Assembly (NCBI GenBank): GCA_020002185.1
Contig: CM034537.1
Span: forward strand, 9,266,409 to 9,330,408
DNA from: Paraescarpia echinospica
Lineage: Eukaryota; Annelida; Polychaeta; Sabellida; Siboglinidae
Direction: 5' to 3'
DNA length: 64,000 nucleotides
How positions within the stretch are numbered: the first letter of the stretch is position 1; the number at the start of each line of letters is the position of its first letter. Under the pieces are notes generated by a model. The model saw nothing but the letters and a program-made list of their open reading frames with translations, made no database searches and had not been told where the DNA came from. Shown in pieces: positions 14,998-63,129 of the stretch. The position numbers and the translations under genes were made by a program.

Positions 14998-15136
14998 AGA
15001 TTGCCCGAATGCTGGGCCAGTCCAGCTGGATTTGCGCCATCCAATTGCGACCTAGCAGCGCTGGTCTTAGCAGCAGGAGACCACCCTGATAGTCTCTCAG
15101 TTGCAGCTGTGTTGGCTCTAGTGCAAAGCGAGACAA

Positions 15137-16150
15137 CTATTCATTGTACAGCTGCTCGGACGCGACTGACACCACTGCGCCAGTATCGATCTCCATGTCG
15201 ATAGGCCTACCATCAACCCTGACAGTCACCATGTTCTTAGGTGTGCGCTGTCCCACCGTAATCGCGGACACGTCACTGTCGCTCGTCGATCTGGCCTCCG
15301 TGATGTGGTGAATTCCGAGTCCACTACTGCTGTCACTTTCCCCTCCGTCATCATGCACCAGGTTGGTGTTTCTGCGACTTTGGCACATTTTATGCAAATG
15401 TCCAATACGTCCGCACCCATAGCACTTAGCTTTGCGAAACTTGCAAGTCTGAGCATCGTGATTCAGCCCGCAACGCATACACGACTGCCTCGCTGTATTA
15501 TCGCCCGTTCTCCTCGACACCACATGCTCTTTCGTCAACACCTGCTGCTGCCGTCGTGGATGACCCATCACCCGGTGTACCTCCATCACACTTGCCTTGC
15601 CAGTCAGCTCCATCGTGTTGTGAGCTGCCAGCTCCATCGCTTGAGCGACCGTGCACGCCGTGATGAACGTCAAATCTTTGTCCGCTAGGAGGCGCTTCTG
15701 CGTAGCTTCGTTGTGTAGACCGCATACGAAACGCTCCCTCAACGCCTCATCCAGAAACGTCCCAAAGTCACACGTCGAGGCCAGCTGTTTCAGTGCCACT
15801 ATGTAGTCGGCTACTGACTCCCCGTCACCCTGGTTGCGTTTGTTGTACTGGAAGCGTTCAGCGATCACAATTCGCTGTGGTCGGTAGTGCGTCACCAGGG
15901 TCGCTGTCAGCACTGCAAAAGTCTGATCAGACGGCTTTGCTGGAGTGAGTAGGTTCCGTAGAAGGGCGTATGCTTTAGGCCCGATTACAGCTAGAAGCAC
16001 ACTCACACGACGATCCGCTGTGCCGGCCGGCGTAGGCTCACCAATAGCGTTAGCCAGCATCCACTGCTCCAGTCTTTCCAGATAGCTGTTGACCTCTTCT
16101 CTTCACTCATCGAACTCGCACATAGCACCGATGATGCTCGAGGAAGCCAT
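15137..16150 (-). pseudogene. Ty3/gypsy gag and protease start
   Basis: The likely initiator is the ATG at 16150-16148, 33 bp inside the 5' LTR, but a TGA at 16105-16103 interrupts after 15 codons and the long open part begins near 16100. The capsid-like region is helical and carries LVTHYRPQRIVIAERFQYNK. Two CCHC zinc knuckles follow (C-M-R-C-G-L-N-H-D-A-Q-T-C and C-Y-G-C-G-R-I-G-H-L-H-K-M-C). The protease active site is DTGAVVSVAS. A TAG at 15139-15137 ends the frame. Downstream sequence (ALLGRNW) shows that the protease end is present but shortened. Confidence 0.9.
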
Positions 16151-35696: not shown

Positions 35697-35786
35697 ATGG
35701 CGGCCGGAACGACAACAGAAGAGAAAAGTCGCCAAAATCTTTCACTTCCAGACCGACAACAAACATGGGAATTGGACGAAACTCTT
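35697..35786 (+). CDS. CLC exon 1 (N-terminus)
   Basis: Thirty codons starting ATGGCGGCC and ending W-E-L-D-E-T-L at the donor CTT|GTAAGC, phase 0. The junction E-T-L | M-Y-G-Q-Y matches the E-Q-T-L-M-Y-G-R-Y segment of vertebrate ClC-2, which supports both the exon and the start. The start is the only ATG in this short frame. Confidence 0.85.
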
Positions 35787-41700: not shown

Positions 41701-44700
41701 ATTATTATGAGTACAACTGTCCTGTTACATATGTCAGTACAGCCGTGACCTGTCTATGCAAGTGAAACACCTGAGTAAGATTGTCTTGTTACAGATGTAC
41801 GGCCAATACAGCCGCGACCTGTCTATGCAAGTGAAACACCTGAGTAAGATTGCCTTGTTACAGATATACGGCCAGTACAGTCGCGACCTGTCTATGCAAG
41901 TGAAACACCTGAGTAAGATTGCCTTGTTACAGATGTACGGCCAATACAGCCATGACCTGTCTATGCATGTGAAACACCTGAGTAAGATTGTCTTGTTACA
42001 GATGTACGGCCAGTACAGTCGCGACCTGTCTATGCAAGTGAAACACCTGAGTAAGATTGTCTTGTTACAGATGTACGGCCAATACAGCCATGACCTGTCT
42101 ATGCAAGTGAAACACCTGAGTAAGATTGTCTTGTTACAGATGTACGGCCAATACAGCCGCGACCTGTCTATGCAAGTGAAACACCTGAGTAAGGTTGTCT
42201 TGTTACAGATGCGGCCGAGGTACAGCTGGCGGTGACCTGTCTATGCAGAATTGGAAACACCTGAGTAAGATTGTCTTGTGTTACAGATGCGGCCAGTGCA
42301 GCCCGCGACCTGTCTATGCAAGTGAAACACCTGAGTAAGATTGCCTTGTTACAGATGTACGGCCAGTACAGCCGCGACCTGTCTATGCAAGTGAAACACC
42401 TGAGTAAGATTGTCTTGTTACAGATGTACGGCCAGTACAGCCACGACCTGTCTATGCAAGTGAAACACCTGAGTAAGATTGTCTTGTTACAGATGTACGG
42501 CCAATACAGCCACGACCTGTCTATGCAAGTGAAACACCTGAGTAAGATTGTCTTGTTACAGATGTACGGCCAATACAGCCGCGACCTGTCTATGCAAGTG
42601 AAACACCTGAGTAAGATTGTCTTGTTACAGATGTACGGCCAGTACAGCCACGACCTGTCTATGCAAGTGAAACACCTGAGTAAGATTGTCTTGTTACAGA
42701 TGTACGGCCAATACAGTGTCTATGCAAGTGAAACACCTGAGTAAGATTGCGAAAGTTACCTACAGCCACCTGTCTATGCAAGGAAACACGAGTAAAGATT
42801 GTCTTGACAGTAAGGCCAGTTGTGCCACGACCTGCTGCGGCGGAAACACCTGAGTAAGATTGTCACAGATGTAAATACAGCCATCTGTCTATGCAAGTGA
42901 AACACCTGAGTAAGATTGTCTTGTTACAGATGTACGGCCAGTACAGCCGCGACCTGTCTATGCAAGTGAAACACCTGAGTAAGATTGTCTTGTTACAGAT
43001 GTACGGCCAGTACAGCCACGACCTGTCTGTGCAAGTGAAACACCTGAGTAAGATTGTCTTGTTACAGATGTACGGCCAATACAGCCACGACCTGTCTATG
43101 CAAGTGAAACACCTGAGTAAGATTGTCTTGTTACACATGTACGGCCAATACAGCCACGACCTGTCTATGCAAGTGAAACACCTGAGTAAGATTGTCTTGT
43201 TACAGATGTACGGCCAGTACAGCCACGACCTGTCTATGCAAGGGAAACACCTGAGTAAGATTGTCTTGTTACAGATGTACGGCCAGTACAGCCACGAACT
43301 GTCTATGCAAGTGAAACACCTGAGTAAGATTGTCTTGTTACAGATGTACGGCCAATACAGCCATGACCTGTCTATGCAAGTGAAACACCTGAGTAAGATT
43401 GTCTTGTTACAGATGTACGGCCAGTACAGCCGCGACCTGTCTATGCAAGTGAAACACCTGAGTAAGATTGCCTTGTTACAGATGTACGGCCAGTACAGCC
43501 GCGACCTGTCTATGCAAGTGAAACACCTGAGTAAGATTGTCTTGTTACAGATGTACGGCCAGTACAGCCACGACCTGTCTATGCAAGTGAAACACCTGAG
43601 TAAGATTGTCTTGTTACAGATGTACGGCCAATACAGCCGCGACCTGTCTATGCAAGTGAAACACCTGAGTAAGATTGTCTTGTTACAGATGTACGGCCAA
43701 TACAGCCGCGACCTGTCTATGCAAGTGAAACACCTGAGTAAGATTGCCTTGTTACAGATATACGGCCAGTACAGTCGCGACCTGTCTATGCAAGTGAAAC
43801 ACCTGAGTAAGATTGCCTTGTTACAGATGTACGGCCAGTACAGTCGCGACCTGTCTATGCAAGTGAAACACCTGAGTAAGATTGTCTTGTTACAGATGTA
43901 CGGCCAATACAGCCGCGACCTGTCTATGCAAGTGAAACACCTGAGTAAGATTGTCTTGTTACAGATGTACGGCCAGTACAGCCGCGACCTGTCTATGCAA
44001 GTGAAACACCTGAGTAAGATTGTCTTGTTATAGATGTACGGCCAGTACAGCCGCGACCTGTCTATGCAAGTGAAACAGCTACTTCGCCAGTCAAAGAAAG
44101 AAGACATCCCAAAAGGACTTTACGCTCACCACACCAGTCGTACAAAGACCATACAACGTTAGTAACATTCTTCAAACATAATACTTATCAATTATAGTAC
44201 AGCTTTCTGCCAAGATGAATTAAAAAAAATCTAAATCTGCAAACCACCCATATGTGCCTGTCAGATAACATAGAATATTTCTGCCTCACATACAATATTT
44301 CTGCCCCATATATGCAAAAGTGACAGAGATATGGGTCCACAGACAGACAAACAGACCGAGAACTGTATTGTTTTATAATATAAATGTTAATTTATAGGCT
44401 GTATATCACAGTGTATGGCATCATTGGCATGTAAGGAGAATGGGGAAAATGAGATAAATTATATTTTACAATTCAAACAATGAAACTGTTGTTTCTGGGT
44501 GGATATTTTGTAAATAATCCTCTCCTTTATATCATATCATTGTATAACAATGGATTTCACAAAGTGCATTGACACAAACAAAAGTTTAAATTGTCAGGGA
44601 TTATTATAATTCCCCTTGTTCTTTCAGAATGCTGTCGATCATTTCACAACATTGTTATATCCAAAGTTGGAGAAGACTGGATATTTCTGACCATCCTTGG

Positions 44701-47700
44701 CGTCATCATGGCACTCCTCAGTTACGCCATGGACTTTATCATCCACAAGTGTGAATATGGTAAGTAGCTCACTGTCTCAGTGATGCTGTATGTTTAAGGA
44801 GATATCTTGTGTGTTAACAAGTTATCATCTTGTGTGTTAACAAGTTATCATCCATGTATGCGGATATGGTAAGGAGCTCACTGTCTCAGTGATGCTGTAT
44901 GTTTAAGGAGATATCTTGTGTGTTAACAAGTTATCATCTTGTATGTTAACAAGTTATCATCCATGTATGCGAATATGGTAAGGAGCTCACTGTCTCAGTG
45001 ATGCTGTATGTTTAAGGATATATTTTGTATGTTAACAAGTTATCATCTTGTGTGTTAACAAGTTATCATCTATGTATGCGAATATGGTAAGGAGCTCACT
45101 GTCTCAGTGATGCTGTATGTTTAAGGAGAGATCATGTATGTTGTTGTTAACAAGTTACAGAGTCTGCAAAAAAGGACTGCTCAAAGTGCTTTTCATTTTA
45201 CTCCTTGGCAGATCTGTTCAATTAAACACCATCTTGACATTTCTGGGATTGGGAAGCATTCAGCCATACTATAATTAATGCACAGAGTCTATTTGTAAAC
45301 AAATATCTACAGCCAGGTATTCATTCATACAGCTGAGTGAACTGGAGCAACATAGAGTGAACGAACTTGCCCAAGGTTCGACACCGCAGCACAGGATTTG
45401 AACCTGGGTTCTCTTGATTGACAGTCTCTAGTCAATGCGCTAGCCAATGTGCCATGGTGTTCCACTGAAGTTGATATCTTATAATTGGCTCTTGTTGTTT
45501 TTGGCTCATGTTGTTTTTGGCTCTTGTTGTTTGTTGGTTCTTCTTGTTGTTGACTCTGTTTGTTGTTGTGTTTCAGCGAGGAAGTGGCTGTATGATTCAT
45601 CGGAGGGTATGCCAGTCTTACAGTTCGTGCTGTGGATATTATTTCCCATTGTACTCATCTGTTTCTCCTCTGGCTTTGTTCATCTCGTCGGACCTAATGC
45701 AATAGGTAAGTTGTTGCTTTCAGTTCCAGGTGTTGTTAGCAGGTTCAGAGGGTGTAGGGTCATGTAGCTTGTAGGACACTTTTTAGAGTATCTTGTTCTA
45801 GAGTAATTTGCCAACCTTTAAGATTGTAAAATCATAGACAGTATTGGATGAAATGTCAGTGTTTCAACAAAATGTCATCTATGAGAGAAAAATGTGAACT
45901 TCAAAATAGCACATATTAATTAAACGTAGATTCATAACATATTATATAATATTATTCATTGAATCATTGCTGTTTGATTTGTTTGTGCTGCCAGGCTCTG
46001 GTATCCCCGAGATGAAGACGATCCTGCGAGGTGTTGTGCTCAAGGAATACCTCACACTGCGCACTCTCATAGCTAAGATCATTGGGCTGTGTACATCACT
46101 AGGGTGTGGCCTGCCCATTGGCAAAGAGGCAAGATGTATTCCTTCTTAAAGACGTGTGAAACTAAGGAGTTACCTGGATACCATGCAAACAGACTCAGTC
46201 TTTAGTATAACTCTGCTGTTGCAAATGTTTTCACTTGGTTAAAATCACGTACACATACAATTTTCTTCTTTCAGATTTGAGAGTCTTAAGATTGGTGCCA
46301 ACTCATCACTTGTGTTTGCTATATGTGTGCATGAAACTCTAAACTTATTCAGTTATATACTTGTTTTTTACATGTTGCTAGCCCTGCAGATATTTCTGCG
46401 CAAATATATTAAATTTACAAAGATAGATACATTTACCTGCTACCAAAATTGTATATATCTTGTAAATGTTGTCTACCACGTGGTATATTGATGTTGTTAT
46501 TACAGGGTCCATTTGTGCATGTTGCCAGCATCACAGCAACTCTTCTGAGTAAATTCATCACTTCTGTGACTGGCATCTATGAGGTCAGTCCACTATTGTT
46601 CAGTATCATGTCAATACTGTATTCTTAATGCAGGCATGTAATCAGCAAACCTGCTGCATTGAGATATTGGATTCGTCTGAAGACAAACCATTTTGTTTGG
46701 TCTTCACAAAACTATCTTGCTGATTGAATAAATAATTTATTATTTTGGTGTTGTATGTAATTTTGGCCAAGAAAAACCATTTAGTATGTTAAATGGCTTA
46801 AATCAATACACTAAACGTCATGTTCTAAAGATGTTCAACAAACTGTCAATATGATTTATCTTAGTAACGTTTCAGCAGCTTTAAGTTGCCTACTTGAAAC
46901 ATTGACTGCTATTGTGTTACCATTTAGTAGTAGTTAATCTGATTAAGGTAACTAATGGTTGTTTAAACAATGTTGCAAAACAAAGGCACATTGATAGAAA
47001 ATGAGACGAATGTATAATGCGTGTAAAAGTGTTAATATATGTTGCATGTAACAGTGTTAATGTATATTGCATGTAAAAGTGTTAATATATATTATTTTGT
47101 GCATGTAAAAGTGTTAAGCCTCAGTTTGAAACTGTAATGCGTGTGTTGTAGAATGAATCACGGACCAATGAGATGTTAGCGGCTGCTTGTGCGGTTGGGG
47201 TCGCATGTACATTCGCTGCACCCATCGGAGGTGAATCCATCGGGACAACAGCGACTAGCTTGCTGTTTAATAAATACCAACATTTCTAATTTACTGTTTT
47301 CAGAAACATATAAGTTTTTTCCGCATCATGTTAAGGTCTTAAGGATATTAGGATATTACAGACAGCGCCATTGTAATGAAACAGACACACCACCGACTTT
47401 TGGATGCTGGTTGCCTATCAACCAGATCCATCAAGCTTATAAACTGGCTGCAGCACATGTGACGCTCTCAGCCATTCCGTCTTATGTATTTTTTTGCTGA
47501 TATTAACATAATTTTCAGGATTCATCAACAAATGTGTTTAGATTGATGCATTTATTTGTGATAACAGTGTGTTGAGACTGATGTGTTTGTTTGCCAGGTG
47601 TGTTGTTCAGCATTGAGGTAACAGCAAGCTACTTTGCGGTGCGCAACTATTGGCGAGGATTCTACTCAGCTGTATGTGGCGCCCTCGTCTTCAGAATTCT

Positions 47701-50700
47701 TGCGATCATCTTCAGTCGTGAAGGTATGTACGAAAAAGTTTGGCCGTCTTAACTCGCACTGTAGTCATTTAAATATGGCAGGACCAGTGTATAGACACCA
47801 GTGGTGTAGTAGCTAGAGCTTCGAATTCTCGACTGAGAGAACCCGGGTTCGAATCCTGTGCTGCGGTGTCGAACCTTGTGCAAGTGGTAGATATTTGTGT
47901 ACGAATAGTCTTTGCGCATTAATTGCAGCGTGGATGGATGCTTCCCAGAGAAGTGGAGATGATGTTCGATTGAACAGGTCTGCCAGGGAATAAAGTGTAA
48001 AGCGCTTTAAGCAGTCCTGAGGACTGGATACTGCGCTGTATAAAAACTTAGCCTTTTAGTCAGTGGTTTATTAGAGGGTATTTATGCACTGATGGTATTA
48101 TGAATTCACTCCCTATTTTATTTGAGTAGTTCAATGTGGCTGTTTCCTTTCAGAAACGATCACAGCACTGTTCAAGACAAATCTACGACAGGAATTTCCG
48201 TTTGATGTTGTAGAGCTGATTGCCTTTGGTGTCATTGGGTAAGTGCGGGCTTCACTGAGTCACCGAGTCACCACTACTGTATAGTGTTTAGTGCATATCA
48301 CTGCATACCTCCTCAATCTTAATTGTATTTCCATCCACTATATGTGTTTGTCTGCAGTATTGCCCACTATTTGTGTTAGTATGCAATATTGTTCACTGTT
48401 TGTGTTAACATGCAATATCGTTCACTGTTTGTGATTGCTTTCATTATTATCCAATATTTGTATTTGTCTGTATTATTTTCCACTAATTTATTTATTTATT
48501 TATATTTACCTGCAGTAATTTCCACTACTCATGTTGTTGTCAAGTGTTGGTGTTTGCATGCAGTATTGCGTGTGGCTTCGCTGGCGCTCTCTTTGTGTAC
48601 ACGCACCGCAAGTTTGTGACGTTCATCCGAAGCCAGAAAAAACTGAAGGCTTTCCTGCAGAAGAAGTAAGTTCTCTGTTTCCTTCCCTCCTCCTTCTCTC
48701 CTCCTCTTCTCCTTCCCTGCTCCTTCCCTCCTTCTCTCCTCCTTCTCTCCTCCTTCCCTCCTCCTTCTCTCCTCCTTCCCCCTCCTTCCCCTCCTTCCCT
48801 CCTCCTTCTCTTCTTCCTTCCTTCTCTTCTCCTTCCCTCCTTCCCTCCTCCTTCTCTCCTCCTTCTCTTCTCCTGCCCTGCTCCTTCTCTCCTTCTCTGC
48901 TCCTTCCCTCCTTCCCTCCTCCTTCTCTTCTACTTCCCTGCTCCTTCTCTCCACCTTCCCTCCTCTCCTCCTTCCCTTATCCTTCCCTCCTCCTTCTCAC
49001 CTCCTTCCCTCCTCCTCCTCTCCTCCTTCCCTCCTCCTTCTCTTCTCCTTCCCTCATCTTTCCCTCTCATTCCCTCCTCCTCCCCTCCTCCTTCTCTCCT
49101 CCTGCATCAGGTATATAGGGCAATCATAAAGTTTAACAGGAACTTTGCATTTTGTATAAAGTGTAGCTTCTTAAATGCTCTATGATGTAACACTGACATC
49201 AATAATTGCGTGGCCTGAAGTGACTGATGGTGAGATTCTTCAACAAACAAAACTAACAGTGTCATGTTGTGTTGTGTTTCTCCAGTCGTTTCATCTTCCC
49301 AGCATCGGTGATGTTTCTCATTGCAACAGTGAACTACCCCGGCGGACTGGGGCAGTTCAATGCAGGGCGGGTAGGTGGTGCCATGTGTCTTGTATGGACA
49401 CTGTATATATGTAAATATGTATATATATATATATATATATTCTACTTTGATGCAGTGTTCGACATAAGGCTCAAAATGTCAAAGGCCAACCGGGCCTGTA
49501 ACCTGAAAATATTGTGAGGCCGACATAAAGATTTGAAGGCCCAGCGGTCTCAGCAGTCAAATCACTGCCGTCATTCTAATTATGTTATACCTTAAAAATA
49601 GTTATTTTGATATATATATATATATATTAGAAGTCCAAAGCACTGCTGGCAATTTGAATTTTCACCAACGAACCGTTAAAATTGAATGTGACATATTTCA
49701 AATAGTATACACAGGATAATAGATAATAGCGAAGGCCTGCACTTATGTTGAACACTGCTTTGATGTACAGTTGTTATTTTTATTGTTTTCTATAGCAAGT
49801 TACATTTTTATTGAATATAATTATTATATATAATAAATTATTTTATAGCTTAGTCATCACTCGCATAAAAGTATTTCTTAATATTAAGTTTAAATTTGGT
49901 AATTATGTATTTGTTTGTTTGTTGTTTTGTATGCATGTGTGTGCATGAGTGTGCATGTAAAACAGCCTCTGGTGCAGATGATTGAGAGATGTAATAAATG
50001 AACTAGGCTGAACTGGACTGTCTCTGACTGACGTCATGAATCACATAACTTCAGTTGACCAATGGCGAGGCCCTTGATGAGTTGTTCACAAACGTGACGT
50101 GGTCAGACCCGACGGTGTATCTCAACGTCAATGAGAAAGAGATATTGCAGCGCTGGGCTGGGCCTACCAACAATATCTTCCTTACCCTTATCTGCTTCAT
50201 TGTCATGAGGGTAAGTTCACTGTCATTAGGGTGAGTTGTGGTCATTGTCATGAGAGTAAGTTGTGGTCATTGTCATGAGAGTGAGTTGTGGTCATTGTCA
50301 TGAGAGTAAGTTGTGGTCATTGTCATGAGAGTGAGTTGTGTTCATTGTTACAAGGGTGAGTTGTGTTCATTGTCATGAAGGTGAATTGTATTCATTGTCA
50401 TGAGAGTGAATTGTTTTCATTGTCATGAGGGTGAGTTGTGTTCATTGTCACAAGGGTGAGTTGTGTTCATTGTCATGAGGGTGAATTGTGATCATTGTCA
50501 TGAGGGTGAGTTGGGTTCATTGTCACAAGGGTGAGTTGTGTTCATTGTCATGAGGGTGAGTTGTGTTCATTGTCACAAAGGTGAGTTGTGTTCATTGTCA
50601 TGAGGGTGAATTGTGTTCATTGTCACAAGGGTGAGTTGGGTTCATTGTCACAAGGGTGAGTTGTGTTCATTGTCATGAGGGTTAATTGTTGTCATTTTGA

Positions 50701-53700
50701 CAAGGGGGAATTGTGTTCACTGTCACAAGGGTTGTCATGAGGGTGATTTGGATTTACTGACACAAGGGTGAGTTGTGTTCATTGTCACAAGGGTGAATTG
50801 TGTTCATTGTCATGAGGGTGAGTTGGGTTCATTGACACAAGGGTGAGTTGTGTTCATTGTCATGCAGATGAGTTGTGTTAAAAATCATTGTATCTGTGAG
50901 CATCTATGGAAGAAGATCTTCTTAATGATTTTGCCCTCCTCAGTATACATAGGGCAACTGAAGAACTTAATAAACATTGAGCAAATTATTTACTAGTTTA
51001 CAGTAACCAAAATGAGAAATGTGGTCTTGATGTTAAGTTACCTTAAATGTGAATATAGTTGTTTGTCTTTGTAAATATGTTCATTTTGAGGGGATTTATT
51101 ATTTATTTTACCTTGAACAGTTCACAGTTCATATCAGATAAAATATGGTGAAGCGAGGGTGGTGCAGCCTCCTCGACATGCAGTGTGAACTTTACGTTTG
51201 GTGTTCATAATTATTTGCAATAGTGTACTACATTAAACTTTGCAAGTAGTTGTGAAATTGCATGGTAGCATGACCAGTTCAGTTTACTCAAAGAGGATAT
51301 GAAAACATGTCGGAAGGATGTATTAGGGTGGGGTTGGTGTCGGAAGGATGTATTAGGGTGGGGTTTTTGTCGGAAGGATGTATTAGGGTGGGGTTGGTGT
51401 CGGAAGGATGTATTAGGGTGGGGTTGGTGTCGGAAGGATGTATTAGGGTGGGGTTGGTGTCGGAAGGATGTATTAGGGTGAGGTTGGTGTCGGAAGGATG
51501 TATTAGGGTGAGGTTGGTGTCGGAAGGATGTATTAGGGTGGGGTTGGTGTCGGAAGGATGTATTAGGGTGAGGTTGGTGTCGGAAGGATGTATTAGGGTG
51601 AGGTTGGTGTCGGAAGGATGTATTAGGGTGAGGTTGGTGTCGGAAGGATGTATTAGGGTGGGGTTGGTGTCGGAAGGATGTATTAGGGTGGGGTTGGTGT
51701 CGGAAGGATGTATTAGGGTGCGGTTGGTGTCGGAAGGATGTATTAGGGTGAGGTTGGTGTCGGAAGGATGTATTAGGGTGAGGTTGGTGTCGGAAGGATG
51801 TATTAGGGTGAGGTTGGTGTCGGAAGGATGTATTAGGGTGAGGTTGGTGTCGGAAGGATGTATTAGGGTGAGGTTGGTGTCGGAAGGATGTATTAGGGTG
51901 GGGTTGGTGTCGGAAGGATGTATTAGGGTGGGGTTGGTGTCGGAAGGATGTATTAGGGTGGGGTTGGTGTCGGAAGGATGTATTAGGGTGGGGTTGGTGT
52001 CGGAAGGATGTATTAGGGTGAGGTTGGTGTCGGAAGGATGTATTAGGGTGAGGTTGGTGTCGGAAGGATGTATTAGGGTGAGGTTGGTGTCGGAAGGATG
52101 TATTAGGGTGAGGTTGGTGTCGGAAGGATGTATTAGGGTGAGGTTGGTGTCGGAAGGATGTATTAGGGTGGGGTTGGTGTCGGAAGGATGTATTAGGGTG
52201 AGGTTGGTGTCGGAAGGATGTATTAGGGTGAGGTTGGTTCGGAAGGATGTATTAGGGTGGGGTTGGTGTCGGAAGGATGTATTAGGGTGAGGTTGGTGTC
52301 GGAAGGATGTAAGGATGTATTAGGGTGAGGTTGGTGTCAGAAGGATGTATTAGGGTGAGGTTGGTGTCGGAAGGATGTATTAGGGTGAGGTTGGTGTCGG
52401 AAGGATGTATTAGGGTGAGGTTGGTGTCGGAAGGATGTATTAGGGTGAGGTTGGTGTCGGAAGGATGTATTAGGGTGGGGTTGGTGTCGGAAGGATGTAT
52501 TAGGGTGAGGTTGGTGTCGGAAGGATGTATTAGGGTGAGGTTGGTGTCGGAAGGATGTATTAGGGTGAGGTTGGTGTCGGAAGGATGTATTAGGGTGAGG
52601 TTGGTGTCGGAAGGATGTATTAGGGTGGGGTTGGTGTCGGAAGGATGTATTAGGGTGGGGTTGGTGTCGGAAGGATGTATTAGGGTGGGGTTGGTGTCGG
52701 AAGGATGTATTAGGGTGAGGTTGGTGTCGGAAGGATGTATTAGGGTGGGGTTGGTGGAGCTAAATGATGTTTTGCACCCAGGCACCAACAACACTCACTA
52801 CACCACTGGTGTATCAAGAGTTGTTTCAGCTCATCTGGGTGTGTCCGAGTGATGCCACTTTTTGCATATTTAACAGCTGCTTTATATTTCATAGAGAATG
52901 TTATTGCTTTCAGTTTCTGGGTGCTGCCATGGCGACGGCACTGCCTGTACCATCTGGCGTCTTCATGCCTATCTTTACCATCGGTGTGTATCCCACCAGC
53001 TTATATACCTCACTAGGTCATCTCTTATTTTCTATTGCCATGTTTGTGACACCACCAATGCTGTTTGTGACATTTGTAACATATCAAACAGACTTTATGA
53101 TATTCAGTAATATGTCTGCATTGGGTCCGCTGGATGTTGCAGGTGTGTAGGTAAGGGAATTACTGATTCAGTAATAATCCTGAAGCATATGTGACATTGA
53201 CACACATGACGAACATGTTATAAAACGTAAACAGTATAAAGAAACAGTACTATATGTCTTTATAAAGTAAAAGGAAGATGAGAAACAGAGTCTATATTTG
53301 CACATTTAGTGTAAGAGAAATCAACTATGTATACCCAGCTACTGTCGTACATTTCAACCATAATTTTGAAGTGTTAACACTGTTGTAACTAAATTGCCTA
53401 TTAGAATACAGGGGTATATAGAATGTGCTAGAGACAAATAAAATGAAGGAATTAATTCATGGCGTTGCAATGAATACAACGTTCCTCTGAAATCATTTTA
53501 TCCTTTTGTTATGAATACATCAGTTTGTGTTATTACCATGTAGTCTTTCATTTGCTTGTGAACTGGAAATAGATGAACTAGTTGATGTGTTTGCATTTTG
53601 TACAGGTGTGTATGTCACAAAGAGAATGACAAGTCTAGTTCCCTGTGCTTGTAGGTGCTGCGTTTGGCCGGTTGATGGGCGAATGTATGGCGGTCTGGTT

Positions 53701-56700
53701 CCCACAGGGCATTGGAGGTCAGACGATTGTCCCAGGTGGCTATGCTATTGTTGGTGCGGCCGCATTGTCTGGCAGTGTCACCCACACCATCTCAACAGCG
53801 GTCATCGTCTTTGAACTGACAGGTCAGATAGCTCATGTACTTCCATGTGTGGTAAGTTCAACTTTCACTTTCACTTCAGTCTTATGCTGCAAATATTAAA
53901 TATTATAATAATCAGAACACATTTTGAGGTAGATAATTATTAAGGATTAATGTGACATTAGTCTGTATTTTTCAGGATAATAAAAGTTTCCAAATCTGAT
54001 TTCTTTAAGAGTAACTGTATTATTTGGTTGTGTCTGCATTGATATAATAAACCAAGTTTATAGCATTGTGTTAAAGGAATGTTAATAGGCAGCTGGAGCA
54101 GTGTTTCATCATAAGAATAGCTTTCAAAATTTGGTTGTGTCTGCATTGATATAATAAACCAAGTTTATAGCATTGTGTTAAAGGAATGTTAATAGGCAGC
54201 TGGAGCAGTGTTTCATCATAAGAATAGCTTTCAAAATTTGGTTGTGTCTGCATTGATATAATAAACCAAGTTTATAGCATTGTGTTAAAGGAATGTTAAT
54301 AGGCAGGTGGAGCAGTGTTTCATCATAAGAATAGCTTTCAAAATTTATTAAGTTAATTTTTCTTCAGGCTAAGTAAATATGCACTACTCGGTTGATAAAT
54401 GTTATGTATATATATGTATATATGTTATATAATAATACTTGATTACTTAATGTATTATATGTCAAACTTTATTTCGTGCCTGTAATAACTTCAGTGTATA
54501 ACTCATACAGGTGGCTCGACATCATTTTCATGACCTTGTTTCCTGGCAATACAAGTCACCATCTCCACACCTCCTATCTCTTGCACTCTCTTCCCCTCCC
54601 TACCCCACTTCTACAGTGTATATATATATATACATATCTAGTTGTATATATAATGTATGTTTCACATGCCAGATTATGACTACAAACTAGTTTAGTAGTG
54701 ACAGTTACTGACATTATAAAAGCAAGGCATTGTGAATGTTTTGCATTTCTAACCACAGGTGACAAAGTGATGGGGTGCGGGTGTTGCCAGGGTAAAGTGA
54801 ATACCACCCCTTATCACCCACTAAGTGGGTTGCAGTGTGTTAGGTATTTCGTTCTGATGTGGCTAGAACTAAACATTAACTAGACTTAACAACTCGACAC
54901 TAGTAATGATAGCCATCACACACAATACAACAATCGTCGACATGCATATTGTTTAAAAATATCATAATTTTATAATGGTAAATATATCATTTATTATGCA
55001 CACTTCATAAATATCTGCTTTGAGACCTTTACATTGAAAACAAAAATGTGAACTTGATACATTTTGTGGCACATTGTGCATTTGACCGTGTTAAAGTTGC
55101 AGATTTTCACCGTAAGACTTTTTTGTCCAGATGTCGTCCTGCAGTACATGTGTTCTAGTACTGTGTTCTTCTGTCCAGATGTCCCGCAGTAAGCCGTTTA
55201 CTGTATTTTTCTGTCCAGATGTCCCACAGTAAGCCATGTACTGTGTTCTTCTGTCCAGATGTCCCACAGTAAGCCGTGTACTGTGTTCTTCTGTCCAGAT
55301 GTCCCACAGTAAGCCGTGTACTGTGTTCTTCTGTCCAGATGTCCCACAGTAAACCGTGTACTGTGTTCTTCTGTCCAGATGTCCCACAGTAAACCGTGTA
55401 CTGTGTTCTTCTGTCCAGATGTCCCACAGTAAGCCGTGTACTGTGTTCTTCTGTCCAGATGTCCCACAGTAAGCCGTGTACTGTGTTCTTCTGTCCAGAT
55501 GTCCCACAGTAAACCGTGTACTGTGTTCTTCTGTCCAGATGTCCCACAGTAAACCGTGTACTGTGTTCTTCTGTCCAGATGTCCCACAGTAAACCGTGTA
55601 CTGTGTTCTTCTGTCCAGATGTCCCCCAGTAAGCCGTGTACTGTGTTCTTCTGTCCAGATGTCCCACAGTAAACCGTGTACTGTGTTCTTCTGTCCAGAT
55701 GTCCCACAGTAAGCCGTGTACTGTGTTCTTCTGTCCAGATGTCCCACAGTAAACCGTGTACTGTGTTCTTCTGTCCAGATGTCCCACAGTAAGCCGTGTA
55801 CTGTGTTCTTCTGCCCAGATCTCCCACAGTAAGCCGTGTACTGTGTTCTTCTGTCCAGATCTCCCACAGTAAACCGTATACTGTGTTATTCTGTCCAGAT
55901 GTCCCACAGTAAGCCGTGTACTGTGTTCTTCTGTCCAGATCTCCCACAGTAAACCGTATACTGTGTTCTTCTGTCCAGATGTCCCACAGTAAGCCGTATA
56001 CTGTGTTATTCTGTCCAGATGTCCCACAGTAAGCCGTGTACTGTGTTCTTCTGTCCAGATGTTCCACAGTAAGCCGTGTACTGTGTTCTTCTGTCCAGAT
56101 GTCCCACAGTAAGCCGTGTACTGTGTTCTTCTGTCCAGATCTCCCACAGTAAACCGTATACTGTGTTATTCTGTCCAGATGTCCCACAGTAAGCCGTGTA
56201 CTGTGTTCTTCTGTCCAGATCTCCCACAGTAAACCGTATACTGTGTTCTTCTGTCCAGATGTCCCACAGTAAGCCGTATACTGTGTTATTCTGTCCAGAT
56301 GTCCCACAGTAAGCCGTGTACTGTGTTCTTCTGTCCAGATGTCCCACAGTAAGCCGTGTACTGTGTTATTCTGTCCAGATGTCCCACAGTAAACCGTATA
56401 CTGTGTTATTCTGTCCAGATGTCCCACAGTAAGCCGTATACTGTGTTATTCTGTCCAGATGTCCCACAGTAAGCCGTGTACTGTGTTCTTCTGTCCAGAT
56501 CTCCCACAGTAAACCGTATACTGTGTTCTTCTGTCCAGATGTCCCACAGTAAGCCGTATACTGTGTTATTCTGTCCAGATGTCCCACAGTAAGCCGTGTA
56601 CTGTGTTCTTCTGTCCAGATGTTCCACAGTAAGCCGTGTACTGTGTTCTTCTGTCCAGATGTCCCACAGTAAGCCGTGTACTGTGTTCTTCTGTCCAGAT

Positions 56701-59700
56701 CTCCCACAGTAAACCGTATACTGTGTTATTCTGTCCAGATGTCCCACAGTAAGCCGTGTACTGTGTTCTTCTGTCCAGATGTCCCACAGTAAACCGTGTA
56801 CTGTGTTCTTCTGTCCAGATGTCCCACAGTAAGCCATGTACTGTGTTCTTCTGTCCAGATCTCCGTAATGATAGCGAATGGTGTTGCGGCGTCACTTCAG
56901 CCTTCCTTCTATGACATGATCATCCAGATCAAACGACTGCCTTATCTACCAGAGACCCTCCTTAACACGAAGCTCTTCATCAAGTAATACACTTCTCCCT
57001 TGTCATCTGTGCATTGTGTCTTCCCTAATGCCCACATCTTGATGTTGTCTTTGGGATGCCTCAAGTGACACACCTTCACAAAATAGTTCCTCTGACCTCT
57101 CACCAGATGTTTGATGATGTTGGCTGTGGCTTAAACCTGTGTGCCATCTGCTTCCACTCACAGATGCTACTACTGCTTTCATTCACCAAGGTTACACTTG
57201 ATGGTAATGTTTCTTTCACCAGTGGTCCTGTGGAAAATATATTTCTTTTCTGCCTTCTTACAGCATGTTTTTTCAATAAACTTCTCTCCTCTGTTGTTCA
57301 ATATCTGCTGTGTGTCAACTTGTGCACCAAACTGTTTGCATAAAATACACAAAGTGTTTTGTGTGGAGGAACAGTTTGTCACTGCCTTGTGTTGATGCCA
57401 CGCCTCGTGAAACTATCGCACAGTGTGCATACCAAGTTTCTTAATCAGTTGACAGAGGAATTATTCTGAAGTTTGTTTGCCCACTGTGTGTTTGTGTCGT
57501 AACATAGTGTATGTCTGTCAGCTTGCTGTTGTCATTTACCCTCACCCCTCTGTGTGTCTGTAGGGTGGCCTAGAGTAGCCTTTAATACTGGTGTAGCATG
57601 ACGTCATATCATGAAGCCTGGGGTGCTGGTGTAAGTGGCTTTATTAACAATGCATACAAATGGCAGGACAACATTTCATGCGGGAAAGGTAACAAATGAA
57701 ACAGAAGATATACAGAAATATGTATCTTCCTTTTATGACACATTCTGAAAAGCTAATGATTCAATTTTCCATTTTTGCATGGGTAGTGTGAGCCAACTGA
57801 GGCTGTAGGGGAATAAAATGTAAGAATTTATAGGGGAGACAAATGGGCTGACTTATTCTCACTCTTCCTGAATTATATCTCACACGTAACAATACAAGTT
57901 TCCTGCATGAAATGTCTGTGTTCATTTGGCTGGAGGCAGTTTGTTTTGTGGAGCTTTTGTAGAACTTGGCAGTACCACTTGACCTGTGCCCTTGCTTCAT
58001 GAGCTGTTCTATCGCCCCATAAATCATGAATGGGTCAGTGCGTGACATTACTCTTATAGTTTCTCTTTCAGTTTCTCTTTCTCTTAGTGTGTTTCAGTTT
58101 CTTTTCAGTTTTGCTAATTAGCATTTTCTTCTAGTACATTGTCTTCATCCTGTGCTTCTGCATGTTTTCTCGCAGCAAATCTGTTTTCAGAAATGTTCTC
58201 TTGGTGGTGGTTTGTTTTGATTTTATGATTTTTTATGTTTTCAGTTTCTAAACTTGCATGTGGTGATTGTGGCTTGGATTATTTTATTTCAGTCTTTCAC
58301 AATGCTTTCCTATTTGCAGCACACCGTACAATTAGCTTATTTTCATTGTTCCAGTTTAGAAACAAATAATCACATGTAAAACGTAGTACATGGTAATGTA
58401 CTGATAGGGGGCATTGCCTTGTAGGGGTCACTGTGTAGGGGGCATGGGATGTCTTGCAATTTGTTATGGGTTAAGGCCATACACCCCAGGTGAAATGGTG
58501 TTTTTTTTACCAAAAATATTCAAAATGGTATTCTGCCAGATTATGATACCTTTGTATGCATCCTATCAAAAAAGTTCACGTTTGTGACAATTGCATACCT
58601 CTAAGTGAGTTTTAGTCATGGATCAAGCATGTCAATATCAATCAATGAAATCTATTATGCAATCTATGATGGCCATTTTCTCGCCAAAAAATTCTCAAAG
58701 TTCTGCATTTGGAAATGGGATATATTTGGAAGCAATTATGCTACACAAATAAGGTTTTCAGTGTTGCATCCAGCAGATTTTGTTGCGTGAAATAATCAGA
58801 CACCTTTAACAAATCATCAATAGTTTGAAAGATATAAGCATATTCGTTGCCAAAAACCAAGTTTTTTTCTTGCACTTTACAAAAAATAAAAACAAAACAT
58901 GGAAAATTGCTCTGATCATTTCACAGTAGAATGTATACAGAACATGGATTTGTAAGAATTATAATTATATATTTGCTTAAAAAAGAATGGCAGTGTTTCC
59001 AAATTTGCTAATATTGGCTCAAAATGGTGGCCATTTTGTTTGTTACCATAGAAAAAGGGGAGCCTGGCCAAAAAAGTTCAACATATTTTTTACTCAGTAT
59101 TATCCATTCCATACTTTGGGCAGAAATAAATCCACAATTTGCACAAATTAAAAAATAATCCTGTCTACCTGCCATGTCTGGCCTTAAAGATAATTCAAAC
59201 ATTTATTTTGCAGATGATTTAGTACAGTAAAATTGTGCTGTACTTTCTTGGAAATACATAATATTCAGCTATTCAGTTGATTCGCAAAGTCATTTGATAT
59301 GAACAAATTCAAGAATATCAACAACTGTCGATGGAATGTTGTACTGCTTGGATTAGAAAGTGTCAAGGCAAGTGCATCGCTTGGAACAATTTGGTTCAAT
59401 TAGTTAAGTCATGACCCTGTTCTGAAACACTGACTTGGCAAGAAAGGACACTTGATAATTGTGTGGATAAAGTGTATTTACCAGAATTGTTCATTATGTG
59501 TCAATAAGTGTAAATTGTAGTAGAGTATCCTACTGAGTGGCCCTTGTAAGAGCTGGGCCAAGCAAGCTGTGTCTGGAGTGGTATACTTGAAAAGACCGGA
59601 TTCTTCAATTGTCTTGTATATGCCACTGCAACTGATGACTGTTGTATGCCAGAGATACCAGTTTTTGAGCTTATAGGTCTTGGTAAAAAAGCCATTGCAC

Positions 59701-62700: not shown

Positions 62701-63129
62701 CATATACGTAGTTGTCTGCTTTCCCTGACCCCTTCTTCTCAGCCTTCCCCTGTCAATCTTCCCACCTCTATTCTTCTGTCTTTTTGCCATCCACTTATTT
62801 GGTTCGCTGTTGTATCGTGCACATTCAGTGGATGTGGCCCATGAAATATTGTTCATGGCTGTGTCACATGACACATGTCACATGACATGTGTCATCAAAC
62901 AATCTGTTTGTGCTGTACATTCACAATGTGAATGTTCAAGGCTGACATTGCTGGGACAAGTAGCAATGTCGACCTTGAAATAATGTCCCCTGTGTTTTGT
63001 TGCTTTGCAGGTTGCTGTGCTGTTCTCGAATATGGTAACACAAACACTGCAGCCATCCTTCTATGATAGTATCATTCAAATCAAGAAGCTTCCATATTTA
63101 CCAGACTTTATAAATGAGACCACTGTTAA
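35697..63129 (+). CDS. CLC-family chloride channel, ClC-2-like (3' end outside window)
   Basis: A plasma-membrane voltage-gated anion channel of the ClC-1/ClC-2 branch, built from 16 exons given separately: 14 constitutive plus the alternatives 15a and 15b. The joined frame is open for about 570 codons. Chloride-path motifs are GSGIPE (residues 159-164), GKEGPFVH (201-208, gating Glu at 203), GVFMP (455-459) and the pore Tyr in LQPSFYD (547). The position equivalent to the proton glutamate of exchangers is Val (I-E-V-T, 263). This indicates a channel, not a Cl-/H+ antiporter (family knowledge). A glycosylation site N-V-T at 401 sits where vertebrate ClC-2 has one. Phases agree at every junction, and all introns are GT-AG except intron 5 (GC-AG). 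The CBS domains should be encoded beyond 64000. Whether it is nearer ClC-2 or a lineage-specific paralogue cannot be told here. Confidence 0.95.
37207..37292 (+). mobile_element. CR1-like LINE, 3' tail only
   Basis: Matches the 3' ends of 5208-6242 and 37583-38136: GGACTCTCGATAAACCAAA, CATGCCATCTGGAG, and an end CTGTTAAATC. It is more diverged than the other two and is flanked by TA repeats. Confidence 0.75.
37583..38136 (+). mobile_element. CR1-like LINE, 5'-truncated copy
   Basis: The open part (37564-38037) gives [27 protein letters not shown] and [21 protein letters not shown], closely matching the copy at 5208-6242. The 3' tail matches too and ends in TCTTGTTAAA repeats. It lies in CLC intron 1 in the sense orientation. 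It is not a host exon. Confidence 0.88.
39487..39967. repeat. 62-bp minisatellite, about 8 copies
   Basis: The unit begins CTTAGATACTGTCTTCAATT and continues through GTTGAGTTACAAG. Copies after the second are almost identical. It lies in CLC intron 1. Confidence 0.95.
40208..41019. mobile_element. hAT-like non-autonomous DNA element
   Basis: An 812-bp element with perfect 17-bp terminal inverted repeats CAGACATGGGGTCAAAT. Subterminal regions are rich in ATTTGCATTT and AAATACTTT motifs in both orientations. The flanks TGTACTAC (40200-40207) and GGAACTAC (41020-41027) match at six of eight bases, consistent with a decayed 8-bp target duplication. There is no transposase frame. Family knowledge: hAT elements start CAG and make 8-bp duplications. 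Confidence 0.82.
41722..44033 (+). repeat. 69-bp minisatellite derived from the exon 2 acceptor
   Basis: About 33 tandem copies of a 69-bp unit. Each unit contains the intron end TTGTCTTGTTACAG, then about 44 bases matching the start of CLC exon 2 (ATGTACGGCCAGTACAGC onward), then CCTGAGTAAGATTG. Each therefore holds an acceptor-like site and, 49 bp later, a donor-like A|GTAAGA. The unit is 23 codons without stops, so long frames appear on both strands. Two patches (42208-42310 and 42705-42890) are irregular. The array ends at the authentic exon 2 acceptor. Confidence 0.95.
44034..44157 (+). CDS. CLC exon 2
   Basis: Begins ATG TAC GGC (M-Y-G-Q-Y-S-R-D-L) after TTATAG and ends at CAAC|GTTAGT. 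Phase in 0, phase out 1. It matches the M-Y-G-R-Y-T-Q-D-L segment of ClC-2. Its first 44 bases are the seed of the 69-bp array immediately upstream. Confidence 0.9.
44628..44759 (+). CDS. CLC exon 3 (helix B region)
   Basis: Codes VSKVGEDW-like [12 protein letters not shown] and the first membrane helix, ending C-E-Y-G. The acceptor is TTCTTTCAG and the donor TATG|GTAAGT. Phase 1 to 1. The end of this exon and its donor are repeated in the 109-bp array. Confidence 0.95.
44738..45130 (+). repeat. 109-bp repeat of the exon 3 donor, four copies
   Basis: Donor sequences ATATGGTAAG occur at 44760 (authentic), 44869, 44978 and 45087, exactly 109 bp apart, each followed by GAGCTCACTGTCTCAGTGAT or a close variant. 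The last 20 or so exon bases are copied with changes (TCATCCATGTATGCG). Each unit also has an internal TTAACAAGTTATCATC repeat. Confidence 0.93.
45158..45462 (-). mobile_element. tRNA-derived SINE, full-length copy in intron 3
   Basis: On the minus strand it starts with a tRNA-like head (GGCACATTGGCTAGCGC as A-box region and GGTTCAAATCC as B box). A body with TGTGCTGCGGTGTCGAAC follows, then the tail AACAGATCTGCCAAGGAGT and AAAGCACTTTGAGCAGTCC. The same family occurs at 47799-48060 and 18151-18284. Confidence 0.82.
45577..45705 (+). CDS. CLC exon 4 (helices C-D)
   Basis: Codes ARKWLYDS and a hydrophobic helix ending [12 protein letters not shown]. Acceptor GTGTTTCAG, donor ATAG|GTAAGT. Phase 1 to 1. 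Confidence 0.95.
   Translation, partial: RGSGCMIHRRVCQSYSSCCGYYFPLYSSVSPLALFISSDLMQ
45995..46128 (+). CDS. CLC exon 5 (GSGIPE anion site)
   Basis: Codes [20 protein letters not shown], the most conserved CLC segment, and ends P-I-G-K-E. Acceptor GTGCTGCCAG. The donor is GAG|GCAAGA, a GC type. Phase 1 to 0. The last codon is the gating glutamate. Confidence 0.95.
46129..46505 (+). other. CLC intron 5, GC-AG type
   Basis: The exon boundary is fixed by the conserved G-K-E | G-P-F-V-H motif. The intron begins GCAAGA and ends TTATTACAG. AG|GCAAG is the usual context of GC donors, and no GT donor gives the same protein. Confidence 0.9.
46506..46583 (+). CDS. CLC exon 6 (helix F)
   Basis: Codes [17 protein letters not shown] and ends G-I-Y-E at GAG|GTCAGT. 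Phase 0 to 0. Completes GKEGPFVH with exon 5. Confidence 0.95.
47152..47230 (+). CDS. CLC exon 7 (helix G)
   Basis: Codes [20 protein letters not shown] and FAAPIG. Acceptor TGTTGTAG, donor GGAG|GTGAAT. Phase 0 to 1. Confidence 0.95.
47598..47723 (+). CDS. CLC exon 8 (helices H-I)
   Basis: Codes [20 protein letters not shown] and a hydrophobic helix ending IIFSRE. The residue after I-E is Val, the channel signature. Acceptor TTGCCAG, donor AAG|GTATGT. Phase 1 to 1. Confidence 0.95.
47799..48066 (+). mobile_element. tRNA-derived SINE, full-length copy in intron 8
   Basis: The head has a B box GGTTCGAATCC and an A-box-like TAGTAGCTAGAGC. The body shares TGTGCTGCGGTGTCGAAC with the copy in intron 3. 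The tail reads CAGGTCTGCCAGGGAATAAA, GCGCTTTAAGCAGTCC and CTGCGCTGTATAAAAAC. CAGTGG at both ends (47799-47804 and 48061-48066) may be a short target duplication. Confidence 0.85.
48154..48238 (+). CDS. CLC exon 9
   Basis: Codes [20 protein letters not shown] and ELIAFGVIG. Acceptor TTCCTTTCAG, donor TTGG|GTAAGT. Phase 1 to 2. It covers the loop into helix J. Confidence 0.94.
48564..48665 (+). CDS. CLC exon 10 (helix J)
   Basis: Codes [20 protein letters not shown] and a basic end KKLKAFLQK. Acceptor GCATGCAG, donor AGAA|GTAAGT. Phase 2 to 2. A homopyrimidine tract begins just past the donor. Confidence 0.94.
48670..49110. repeat. 440-bp homopyrimidine tract
   Basis: Almost pure C/T on the + strand in CCTTCTCTCCTCC-like units, with very few purines. 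It starts a few bases after the exon 10 donor. Such tracts can form triplex DNA, and they provide an extended polypyrimidine run in the pre-mRNA. Confidence 0.93.
49286..49370 (+). CDS. CLC exon 11 (helix K)
   Basis: Codes [16 protein letters not shown] and [12 protein letters not shown]. Acceptor GTTTCTCCAG, donor GCGG|GTAGGT. Phase 2 to 0. Confidence 0.94.
50055..50210 (+). CDS. CLC exon 12 (L-M loop and helix M)
   Basis: Codes [16 protein letters not shown], with the glycosylation site N-V-T, then the helix [14 protein letters not shown]. Acceptor AACTTCAG, donor GAGG|GTAAGT. Phase 0 to 0. Its last 15 bases (TTCATTGTCATGAGG) seed the following 25-bp array. Confidence 0.95.
50196..50872 (+). 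repeat. 25-bp minisatellite derived from the exon 12 donor
   Basis: About 27 copies of a unit like TTCATTGTCATGAGGGTGAG plus TTGTG. The first unit is the exon 12 end and its donor. Most units keep a donor-like GAGG|GTGAGT or AAGG|GTGAGT. Because 25 is not a multiple of three, use of a later site would usually shift the frame. Confidence 0.94.
51306..52756. repeat. 30-bp G-rich minisatellite, about 48 copies
   Basis: The unit is GTCGGAAGGATGTATTAGGG plus TGAGGTTGGT (or TGGGGTTGGT). Two register slips occur at about 52239 and 52305. Each unit has four or more G runs, so G-quadruplex formation on the + strand is plausible. Stop-free frames result from the repeat. It lies in CLC intron 12. Confidence 0.95.
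52914..52983 (+). CDS. CLC exon 13 (helix N, GxFxP)
   Basis: Codes [20 protein letters not shown] and FTIG. Acceptor GCTTTCAG, donor ATCG|GTGTGT. Phase 0 to 1. G-V-F-M-P is the third anion-site motif. Confidence 0.94.
53655..53851 (+). CDS. CLC exon 14 (helices O-Q)
   Basis: Codes [30 protein letters not shown] and [17 protein letters not shown]. Acceptor GCTTGTAG, donor TGTG|GTAAGT. Phase 1 to 0. It is followed by a choice of exon 15a or 15b. Confidence 0.95.
54024..54345. repeat. 107-bp tandem repeat, three copies
   Basis: TTGGTTGTGTCTGCATTGAT starts at 54024, 54131 and 54238, and copies are almost identical. It lies in intron 14. Confidence 0.95.
55154..56858 (+). repeat. 40-bp minisatellite derived from the exon 15a acceptor
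   Basis: About 43 copies of GTCCCACAGTAAGCCGTGTA plus CTGTGTTCTTCTGTCCAGAT. Each has a polypyrimidine tract and CAG identical to the exon 15a acceptor, plus the first exon bases (ATCTCC or ATGTCC). Ten bases after the CAG is a donor-like ACA|GTAAGC. The array ends at the authentic exon, and higher-order duplications are visible (336 bp identical at an offset of 560 bp). Confidence 0.95.
56859..56983 (+). CDS. CLC exon 15a (helix R, alternative 1)
   Basis: Codes [20 protein letters not shown], then [16 protein letters not shown] and TKLFI. Acceptor TTCTGTCCAG, donor TCAA|GTAATA. Phase 0 to 2, 41 codons plus two bases. It aligns with the helix R segment of ClC-2, including the pore Tyr. The reading frame is intact, so it is not an obvious pseudo-exon. 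The donor is weaker than that of 15b. Confidence 0.9.
58475..59183. mobile_element. Candidate TTAA-flanked MITE
   Basis: The segment is bounded by TTAA at 58471-58474 and 59184-59187. The ends GGCCATACACCCCAGG and GGCCAGACATGGCAGG (second read on the minus strand) are similar inverted repeats. There is no transposase frame. TTAA targets are typical of piggyBac and Kolobok elements; which one applies is not known. Confidence 0.5.
60101..60676. repeat. 20-bp minisatellite, about 29 copies
   Basis: The unit is ATAGTGCTGATGGCCTTGCC, with many ATAGCACTGATGGCTTTGCC variants. It is more diverged than the other arrays in this gene. Confidence 0.92.
61525..62215. repeat. Degenerate 30-bp minisatellite
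   Basis: Repeats of the form AACTCAACCCAGGATAACTT followed by GACTCTGGCT, with many substitutions and length changes. The register is lost in places, so the copy number is uncertain. Confidence 0.85.
63011..63129 (+). CDS. CLC exon 15b (helix R, alternative 2)
   Basis: Codes [20 protein letters not shown], then [19 protein letters not shown]. Acceptor TGCTTTGCAG, donor TTAA|GTATGT. Phase 0 to 2, 39 codons plus two bases. It is homologous to 15a at LQPSFYD, IIQIK and LPYLP. [11 protein letters not shown] is closer to the vertebrate ClC-2 form. No minisatellite is attached to its acceptor. Confidence 0.92.

Follow-up and report, generated by a model that had tools for sequence, protein, structure and literature searches.

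Minisatellites that span exon–intron junctions in a CLC-2 chloride channel gene and in chaperonin genes of the tubeworm Paraescarpia echinospica

This study focused on a 64,000-nucleotide stretch of the genome of the deep-sea tubeworm Paraescarpia echinospica (the window; contig CM034537.1 of assembly GCA_020002185.1, positions 9,266,409 to 9,330,408), which carries a gene for a CLC-2 type chloride channel on its + strand. Joined together, the fourteen exons between 44034 and 56983 encode an uninterrupted CLC-2 protein of 540 aa. Among the best 120 of 5905 matches, its closest relative is a protein of Ridgeia piscesae (96% identity over 93% of the length), followed by those of Capitella (67%) and Branchiostoma (63–64%), and the solved structures that match it best are those of chloride channel protein 2. 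An 8.2-kb intron separates exon 1 from exon 2, and exons 16–19 were found downstream of the window. Arrays were mapped with Tandem Repeats Finder (TRF) and by wrap-around alignment of each unit. Four of them have a unit that spans an authentic exon–intron junction of this gene and includes exon bases. The exons and arrays concerned are as follows.

35697..35786, + strand: exon 1 with the start codon, donor CTT/gtaagc (tblastn with the Ridgeia N-terminus, E 3e-14)
41735..44077, + strand: 69-bp array, unit of 25 intron bases including the acceptor AG and 44 exon-2 bases, acceptor at 44033/44034 (TRF, alignment)
44034..44157, + strand: exon 2, its acceptor being the final copy of the 69-bp array (exon model, unit alignment)
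44628..44759, + strand: exon 3, its donor being the initial copy of the 109-bp array (exon model, unit alignment)
44753..45142, + strand: 109-bp array of 3.6 copies, unit of 7 exon-3 bases, the donor at 44759/44760 and intron (TRF, alignment)
50055..50210, + strand: exon 12, its donor being the initial copy of the 25-bp array (exon model, unit alignment)
50196..50879, + strand: 25-bp array, unit with 15 exon-12 bases (FIVMR) and the donor at 50210/50211, first copy of 20 bp (TRF, alignment)
55158..56864, + strand: 40-bp array of 43 rows, unit of polypyrimidine tract, AG and 6 exon-15a bases, acceptor at 56858/56859 (TRF, alignment)
56859..56983, + strand: exon 15a, its acceptor being the final copy of the 40-bp array (exon model, unit alignment)

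The acceptor arrays (exons 2 and 15a) end with the copy that is the authentic site, the donor arrays (exons 3 and 12) begin with it, and the units carry 44 (exon 2), 6 (exon 15a), 7 (exon 3) and 15 (exon 12) exon bases. A sequence-only reading of this DNA had assigned the four arrays to these same junctions, with 44 copied bases of exon 2 and six of exon 15a, and had held that each array touches the real site and multiplies splice-site consensus; TRF and the unit alignments confirm all of this. The array at exon 12 was counted by unit alignment, since its main TRF row starts 4 bp beyond the junction. Many but not all copies keep the splice dinucleotide: in the 69-bp array AG is intact in 28 of the 30 rows that were scored (six of its 36 rows, with gaps or insertions, being dropped), and in the 40-bp array in 43/43; GT is intact in 4/4 rows of the 109-bp array and, in the 25-bp array, in 24 of the 26 that were scored (three gapped rows out of 29 being dropped). 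The authentic donor of the 109-bp array reads GTAAGT vs GTAAGG in the three other copies. The 40-bp array has a higher-order period of seven units, and a degenerate edge copy extends the 69-bp array back to 41709. The latter also has an indel-rich stretch at about 42190–42880, which suggests local consensus errors or decay.

The copied exon-2 bases encode CLC-2 residues, with Y2, G3, Y5 and L9 nearly invariant. More generally, the copied exon ends are conserved CLC-2 sequence or, in the genes described below, lie within conserved chaperonin exons, and therefore the arrays were derived from the exons and not the reverse. When the genome was searched with the 69-bp unit (1,083,790,144 bases in 3111 contigs, best candidates scored), all 34 matches fell inside its own array, so that a dispersed element can be rejected for this unit. 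Introner-type mobile intron elements form one repeat family spread across many introns, a pattern not matched by the 69-bp unit, the one unit searched genome-wide. Two of the array units had no exact match in the viral and prokaryote contigs scanned, which is no surprise for DNA from an animal.

The gene has a fifth clean case beyond the window, at the exon-18 donor, where a 48-bp array (81715–82433, in coordinates continued past the window) starts with 15 exon-18 bases and the donor. The segment with exons 18–19, at about 71700–83232, is repeated some 18.3 kb further on, at 90741–104000, and could represent either a genuine duplication or a haplotype retained in the assembly. Within this one assembly its twin arrays differ in length, the 48-bp arrays measuring 719 vs 679 bases and the 44-bp arrays 2986 vs 1505.

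Chaperonin genes provided a sample from outside the CLC-2 locus. Family PF00118 gave 52 matches, forming about ten multi-exon loci by our grouping, of which five and half of a sixth (72.5 kb) were read; they were picked for compactness, not for repeats. Junction-spanning acceptor arrays are present in three of these six loci: CCT-epsilon, with a degenerate 30-bp unit carrying 7 exon bases; CCT-gamma, with a 54-bp unit and about 38 exon bases; and HSP60, with a 50-bp unit and 30 exon bases. In CCT-gamma the AG is lost in the two decoys closest to the authentic acceptor, and at a second acceptor of this gene an array abuts the junction without spanning it. At locus D and the half-read locus F no such array occurs at the exons found, a 4-kb array in locus F lying about 0.9 kb from the closest of them. 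Locus E has an array that begins at the second base of a donor and does not copy the exon, as well as a 35-bp array for which no relation to any exon was established. One such array, of 59 bp, lies at a CCT locus on C3 (14199–15666 of the joined stretch); it starts at donor base 2 and consists of intron-only copies. What can be read directly is, then, the anatomy of the arrays, the exon bases in their units, the conserved coding sequence on the exon side and the recurrence in four genes of two families.

Tandem repeats across exon–intron boundaries have been named mirages in amphioxus Adh3 (PMC3087553). They also occur in the amphioxus globins BflGb6 and BflGb9 and in troponin C, and repeats in PGBD5 have been likened to them (PMC3087553, PMC3902484), so that the precedent named in the sequence-only reading was correct. 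The published amphioxus cases found comprise a handful of genes, and their cause was called unclear (PMC3087553). As in the tubeworm, the unit spans the boundary, both donors and acceptors are involved, and AG or GT persists in many of the copies, though not in all (PMC3087553, PMC3902484); the tubeworm arrays lie at the donors of exons 3, 12 and 18 and at the acceptors of exons 2 and 15a, CCT-epsilon, CCT-gamma and HSP60. Amphioxus arrays are variable in length (PMC3087553, PMC3902484), and instability there includes somatic change. In the tubeworm, lengths differ between the twin arrays of the repeated exon 18–19 segment of this one assembly. Amphioxus mirages belong to cephalochordates, whereas those described here belong to an annelid, in which an array may hold as many as 43 copies and a single gene at least five clean cases. 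In amphioxus, reverse transcription PCR suggests normal splicing. Judged by its protein matches, the host is a vestimentiferan tubeworm and not amphioxus, a new host for the same kind of structure rather than the same repeat lineage. No annelid or other protostome mirage was among the literature matches listed (the top 10 to 20 of the longer result sets), and the arrays appear to represent a structure known in kind but new to the phylum, copies and cases per gene both being more numerous than in the published examples found.

Other systems share some of these features. In the AGGT model of intron gain by tandem genomic duplication (PMC3443670), tandem duplication also copies splice-like sequence within a gene, but there an exonic duplication makes a new intron, whereas the tubeworm arrays multiply junctions that already exist, and no gain of introns was observed. 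Human genes of segmental duplications contain variable internal tandem repeats that alter gene structure, some of them at an exon–intron boundary (PMC2812944); half of them are coding and for some novel introns were proposed, whereas the tubeworm arrays lie in introns and keep a single edge copy. Polyubiquitin genes with dual-specific splice sites likewise hold a tandem array of splice sites in one gene, but their units are coding monomers bounded by AGGT, which those of the tubeworm are not (PMC10809524). In an earthworm metallothionein gene, intronic minisatellites and exon duplications absent from transcripts were reported, with no boundary-spanning units described in the part of the paper available (PMC12783039).

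The remaining arrays of the CLC-2 gene were compared with the junctions of their own introns (about 22 tests). The features involved, together with two further exons, are listed here.

45485..45568, + strand: 16-bp array whose end lies 8 bp short of the exon-4 acceptor, next to the junction but not across it (TRF)
48335..48433, + strand: 29-bp array in intron 9, probable decayed copies of the exon-10 acceptor (18/20 identical, over 14 intron and 6 exon bases)
48564..48665, + strand: exon 10 (exon model)
48680..49103, + strand: 11-bp pyrimidine array starting 15 bp past exon 10, without spanning the junction (TRF)
51308..52756, + strand: 30-bp array within intron 12, off the junction, with some likeness to copy 2 of the 25-bp array (TRF, alignment)
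54022..54346, + strand: 107-bp array within intron 14, without similarity to its own junctions (TRF, window comparison)
63011..63129, + strand: exon 15b, alternative to 15a by homology, without an array at its junctions (donor position inferred)

The 29-bp array of intron 9 is probably a decayed mirage of the exon-10 acceptor. The match scores 30, against 15 for the reverse complement, with an empirical p of 0.002 from 3041 windows, or about 0.04 when corrected for the roughly 22 tests. The 30-bp array of intron 12 was considered as a descendant of the exon-12 mirage. Compared with a 50-base window at the exon-12 donor, its consensus scored 23, more than any of the 2089 null windows. It was nevertheless not counted: the match falls in the second copy of the 25-bp array, the score is equalled by seven windows in the 64 kb (three within that array, the other four at an unrelated site), and p was 0.22 when 40-base windows at the donor proper were used. 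Also not counted was a 25-bp array of intron 6, for which comparison with the exon-7 acceptor gave p 0.04 uncorrected and 0.87 with the consensus unit. Arrays before exons 16 and 17 did not match their adjoining junctions (p 0.10, 0.28 and 0.59), and among the arrays of introns 1 and 15 no p below 0.09 was obtained against their own junctions. Over exons 1–19, 22 of the 27 arrays straddle no junction, three of these ending within 15 bp of one; many off-junction arrays are what random birth predicts.

Whether the junction-spanning arrays exceed chance was assessed with thresholds of our choice (period at least 10, copies at least 2.5) and a null in which one unit per array is placed randomly in the collapsed gene, at positions in introns or across one junction. 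In the window, 4/15 arrays straddle junctions vs 1.23 expected (P(≥4) = 0.026), with P 0.049 for the 10 arrays from 41600 on and 0.018 for the 19 arrays up to exon 15b; simulations agree, and arrays of at least 300 bp give P 0.004–0.02. This test is post hoc, as the gene was picked for its arrays. From exon 1 to exon 19 the count is 5/27 vs 1.43 expected (P 0.011), after a hand-corrected merge in which the periods of three arrays were adjusted and the first exon-12 copy was restored. Beyond the window, 4/20 arrays (8 from the downstream CLC-2 gene and 12 chaperonin arrays tallied by hand) straddle junctions vs 0.60–1.22 expected; not every chaperonin exon was found, so the junction number was assumed, and P is 0.003–0.035 over the range of 50 to 150 chaperonin junctions. 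The claim in the sequence-only reading that four cases in one gene are more than chance stands in a modest form, at P 0.026 against random placement, the effect being null-dependent and the test post hoc. Minisatellites make up 34% of the gene from exon 1 to exon 15b vs 3.6% of the 35.7 kb upstream; in 16 arbitrary stretches from eight contigs, 160 kb altogether, their share is 6.4%. The CLC-2 gene is therefore extreme in its minisatellite content.

The explanation we favour, with a probability of about 0.72, is that the arrays are mirages in the amphioxus sense: junction-straddling duplications in a repeat-prone genome that persist because one copy still serves splicing while the rest are intronic. 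A tandem duplication with its ends on either side of an exon–intron junction would found the array, which could then grow by slippage or unequal exchange to dozens of units. The exon-adjacent copy would remain the working splice site as the others became intronic; the protein would therefore be unharmed, the duplication tolerated and the array free to expand. Arrays wholly within coding exons would be purged, and a minisatellite-rich genome would come to hold many junction-straddling arrays. The route of expansion, the purging of exonic arrays and the use of the exon-side copy are steps that we infer. The 109-, 25- and 40-bp units are not multiples of 3, which fits untranslated arrays; from this, and from the frame of the 69-bp unit ending in TAG, the arrays are apparently untranslated. 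Tolerance of such duplications would account for the anatomy of the arrays, for their recurrence and for the absence of constraint on them. Also in its favour are the seven-unit period of the 40-bp array, the unequal twin arrays of the repeated exon 18–19 segment and the many off-junction arrays. With a position weight matrix, the authentic donors outscore nearly all their decoys: that of exon 3 has 10.6 vs 9.2, and that of exon 12 has 10.5 vs at most 9.9, except for one decoy at 12.1.

Several observations weigh against this explanation. Tolerance alone does not predict an excess over random seeding, and the excess is about 2.5- to 7-fold (P 0.003–0.05, depending on the null), so that neutral survival alone may be insufficient. 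By the same position weight matrix, the authentic acceptors are not stronger than their decoys, with 6.7 vs 7.2–7.9 at exon 2 and 9.4 vs 8.0–10.0 at exon 15a. Passive mirages give no account of why dozens of equal or stronger acceptor decoys would be ignored. Tolerance accounts for persistence, and a mutational hot spot would be needed for the excess alone, if it holds genome-wide. A mutational preference for junctions could be the source of the excess, and so could a longer life of those arrays that a conserved exon copy anchors; the data fit either.

A tentative possibility is that tandem duplication starts preferentially at splice junctions, owing to the junctions themselves or to transcription or splicing there, which would make them mutational hot spots; nucleation at junctions or by transcription-coupled events was the proposal of the sequence-only reading. 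This possibility is consistent with the excess over random seeding in all three counts (4/15, 5/27 and 4/20), with the recurrence at exon 18, probably at exon 10, and in three of six chaperonin loci, with the further arrays that abut junctions (the exon-4 acceptor, the exon-10 donor, the exon-16 acceptor, a CCT donor and the second CCT-gamma acceptor), and with the high minisatellite content of the gene relative to its upstream region and the arbitrary stretches. The recurrence stood, but nucleation and a coupling to transcription are no more than possible: the effect is modest and null-dependent, the window gene was picked for its arrays, most CLC-2 arrays lie off junctions, and exon-anchored copies could just keep arrays recognisable for longer. 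A little more doubtful again is the broader proposal that junction hot spots, through transcription- or splicing-coupled duplication, have arisen independently in lancelets and in vestimentiferans, and that in the latter they now affect a large share of genes, housekeeping genes included. Selected splicing-regulatory decoys, for instance the 40-bp array before the alternative exon 15a, or recursive splicing by way of cassette-like units, are unlikely. The retention of AG or GT in most scored copies, the homology of exons 15a and 15b as alternatives, and the presence of GTAAG besides the acceptor in both the 69-bp and the 40-bp unit (chance would place it in about 7% and 4% of units of these kinds) would fit such a role. 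Across five acceptor units, however, donor-like sites are weakly above chance (p 0.33, 0.085, 0.018, 0.17 and 0.28), and an acceptor–donor cassette is unconvincing since they barely exceed chance. Neither are the exon-derived columns unusually conserved: the variable ones, exon- vs intron-derived, number 9/44 vs 3/25 in the 69-bp array (28 rows), 11/15 vs 6/10 in the 25-bp array (25 rows), 2/6 vs 8/34 in the 40-bp array (42 rows) and 1/7 vs 6/102 in the 109-bp array (3 rows), a descriptive comparison and no test of selection, as copies are non-independent. Exon-derived columns are no less variable than intron-derived ones, which fits a lack of constraint on the array copies. The same kind of array in housekeeping chaperonins, and the missing AG in the two CCT-gamma copies nearest the authentic site, also argue against regulation.

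Misassembly of copies or of whole arrays is highly improbable. The indel-rich stretch of the 69-bp array and the possibility that the downstream repeated segment is a retained haplotype speak for it, but four genes have such arrays, at junctions unrelated to one another and on C1, C3 and C11 besides C7 (the contig of the window), the unit variants of the arrays are orderly, and the CLC-2 exons outside the arrays are intact. Least credible of all are coding repeats, suggested by the 69-bp unit (23 codons) being open in frame, with a 391-aa open reading frame (ORF) at 42858–44033. The opposite strand is likewise open (418 aa), the ORF is closed by a TAG at the authentic acceptor, before exon 2, the translation of 43041–44030 matched no protein at E ≤ 0.001 among the 8000 candidates scored, and the lengths of the other three units are not divisible by 3; this reading was rejected on the TAG, the open strands and the lack of a protein match.

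Some further features of the locus can be recorded. Exons 15a (56859–56983) and 15b (63011–63129) encode the same channel segment, and a mirage array precedes 15a alone. The intron-5 donor is of the GC type (GAG/gcaaga, 46129–46134). Remains of non-LTR-like (non-long-terminal-repeat) reverse-transcriptase and Gypsy-like retrotransposon sequences lie at 4071–7844 and 12097–16102, and an ORF in intron 1 (37561–38037) resembles, by eye, one at 5383–6129. Two tRNA-like sequences of the short interspersed element type, of one family by eye, are present in introns 3 and 8 (45310–45470 and 47785–48030).

The finding has a practical side, as the closest public CLC-2 model, that of Ridgeia, leaves the family pattern immediately after exon 14, and annotators should be warned of this. 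By eye, the exon-14 donor was apparently read through in that model, to a stop within intron 14; in Paraescarpia this is the intron with the 40-bp array, and perhaps a long array is the cause in Ridgeia too. More broadly, a second, distant phylum with many mirages makes the idea of junction hot spots testable, and the tubeworm mirages open to test how the spliceosome settles on one site when dozens of almost identical ones are present, and whether arrays of this kind may seed new introns.

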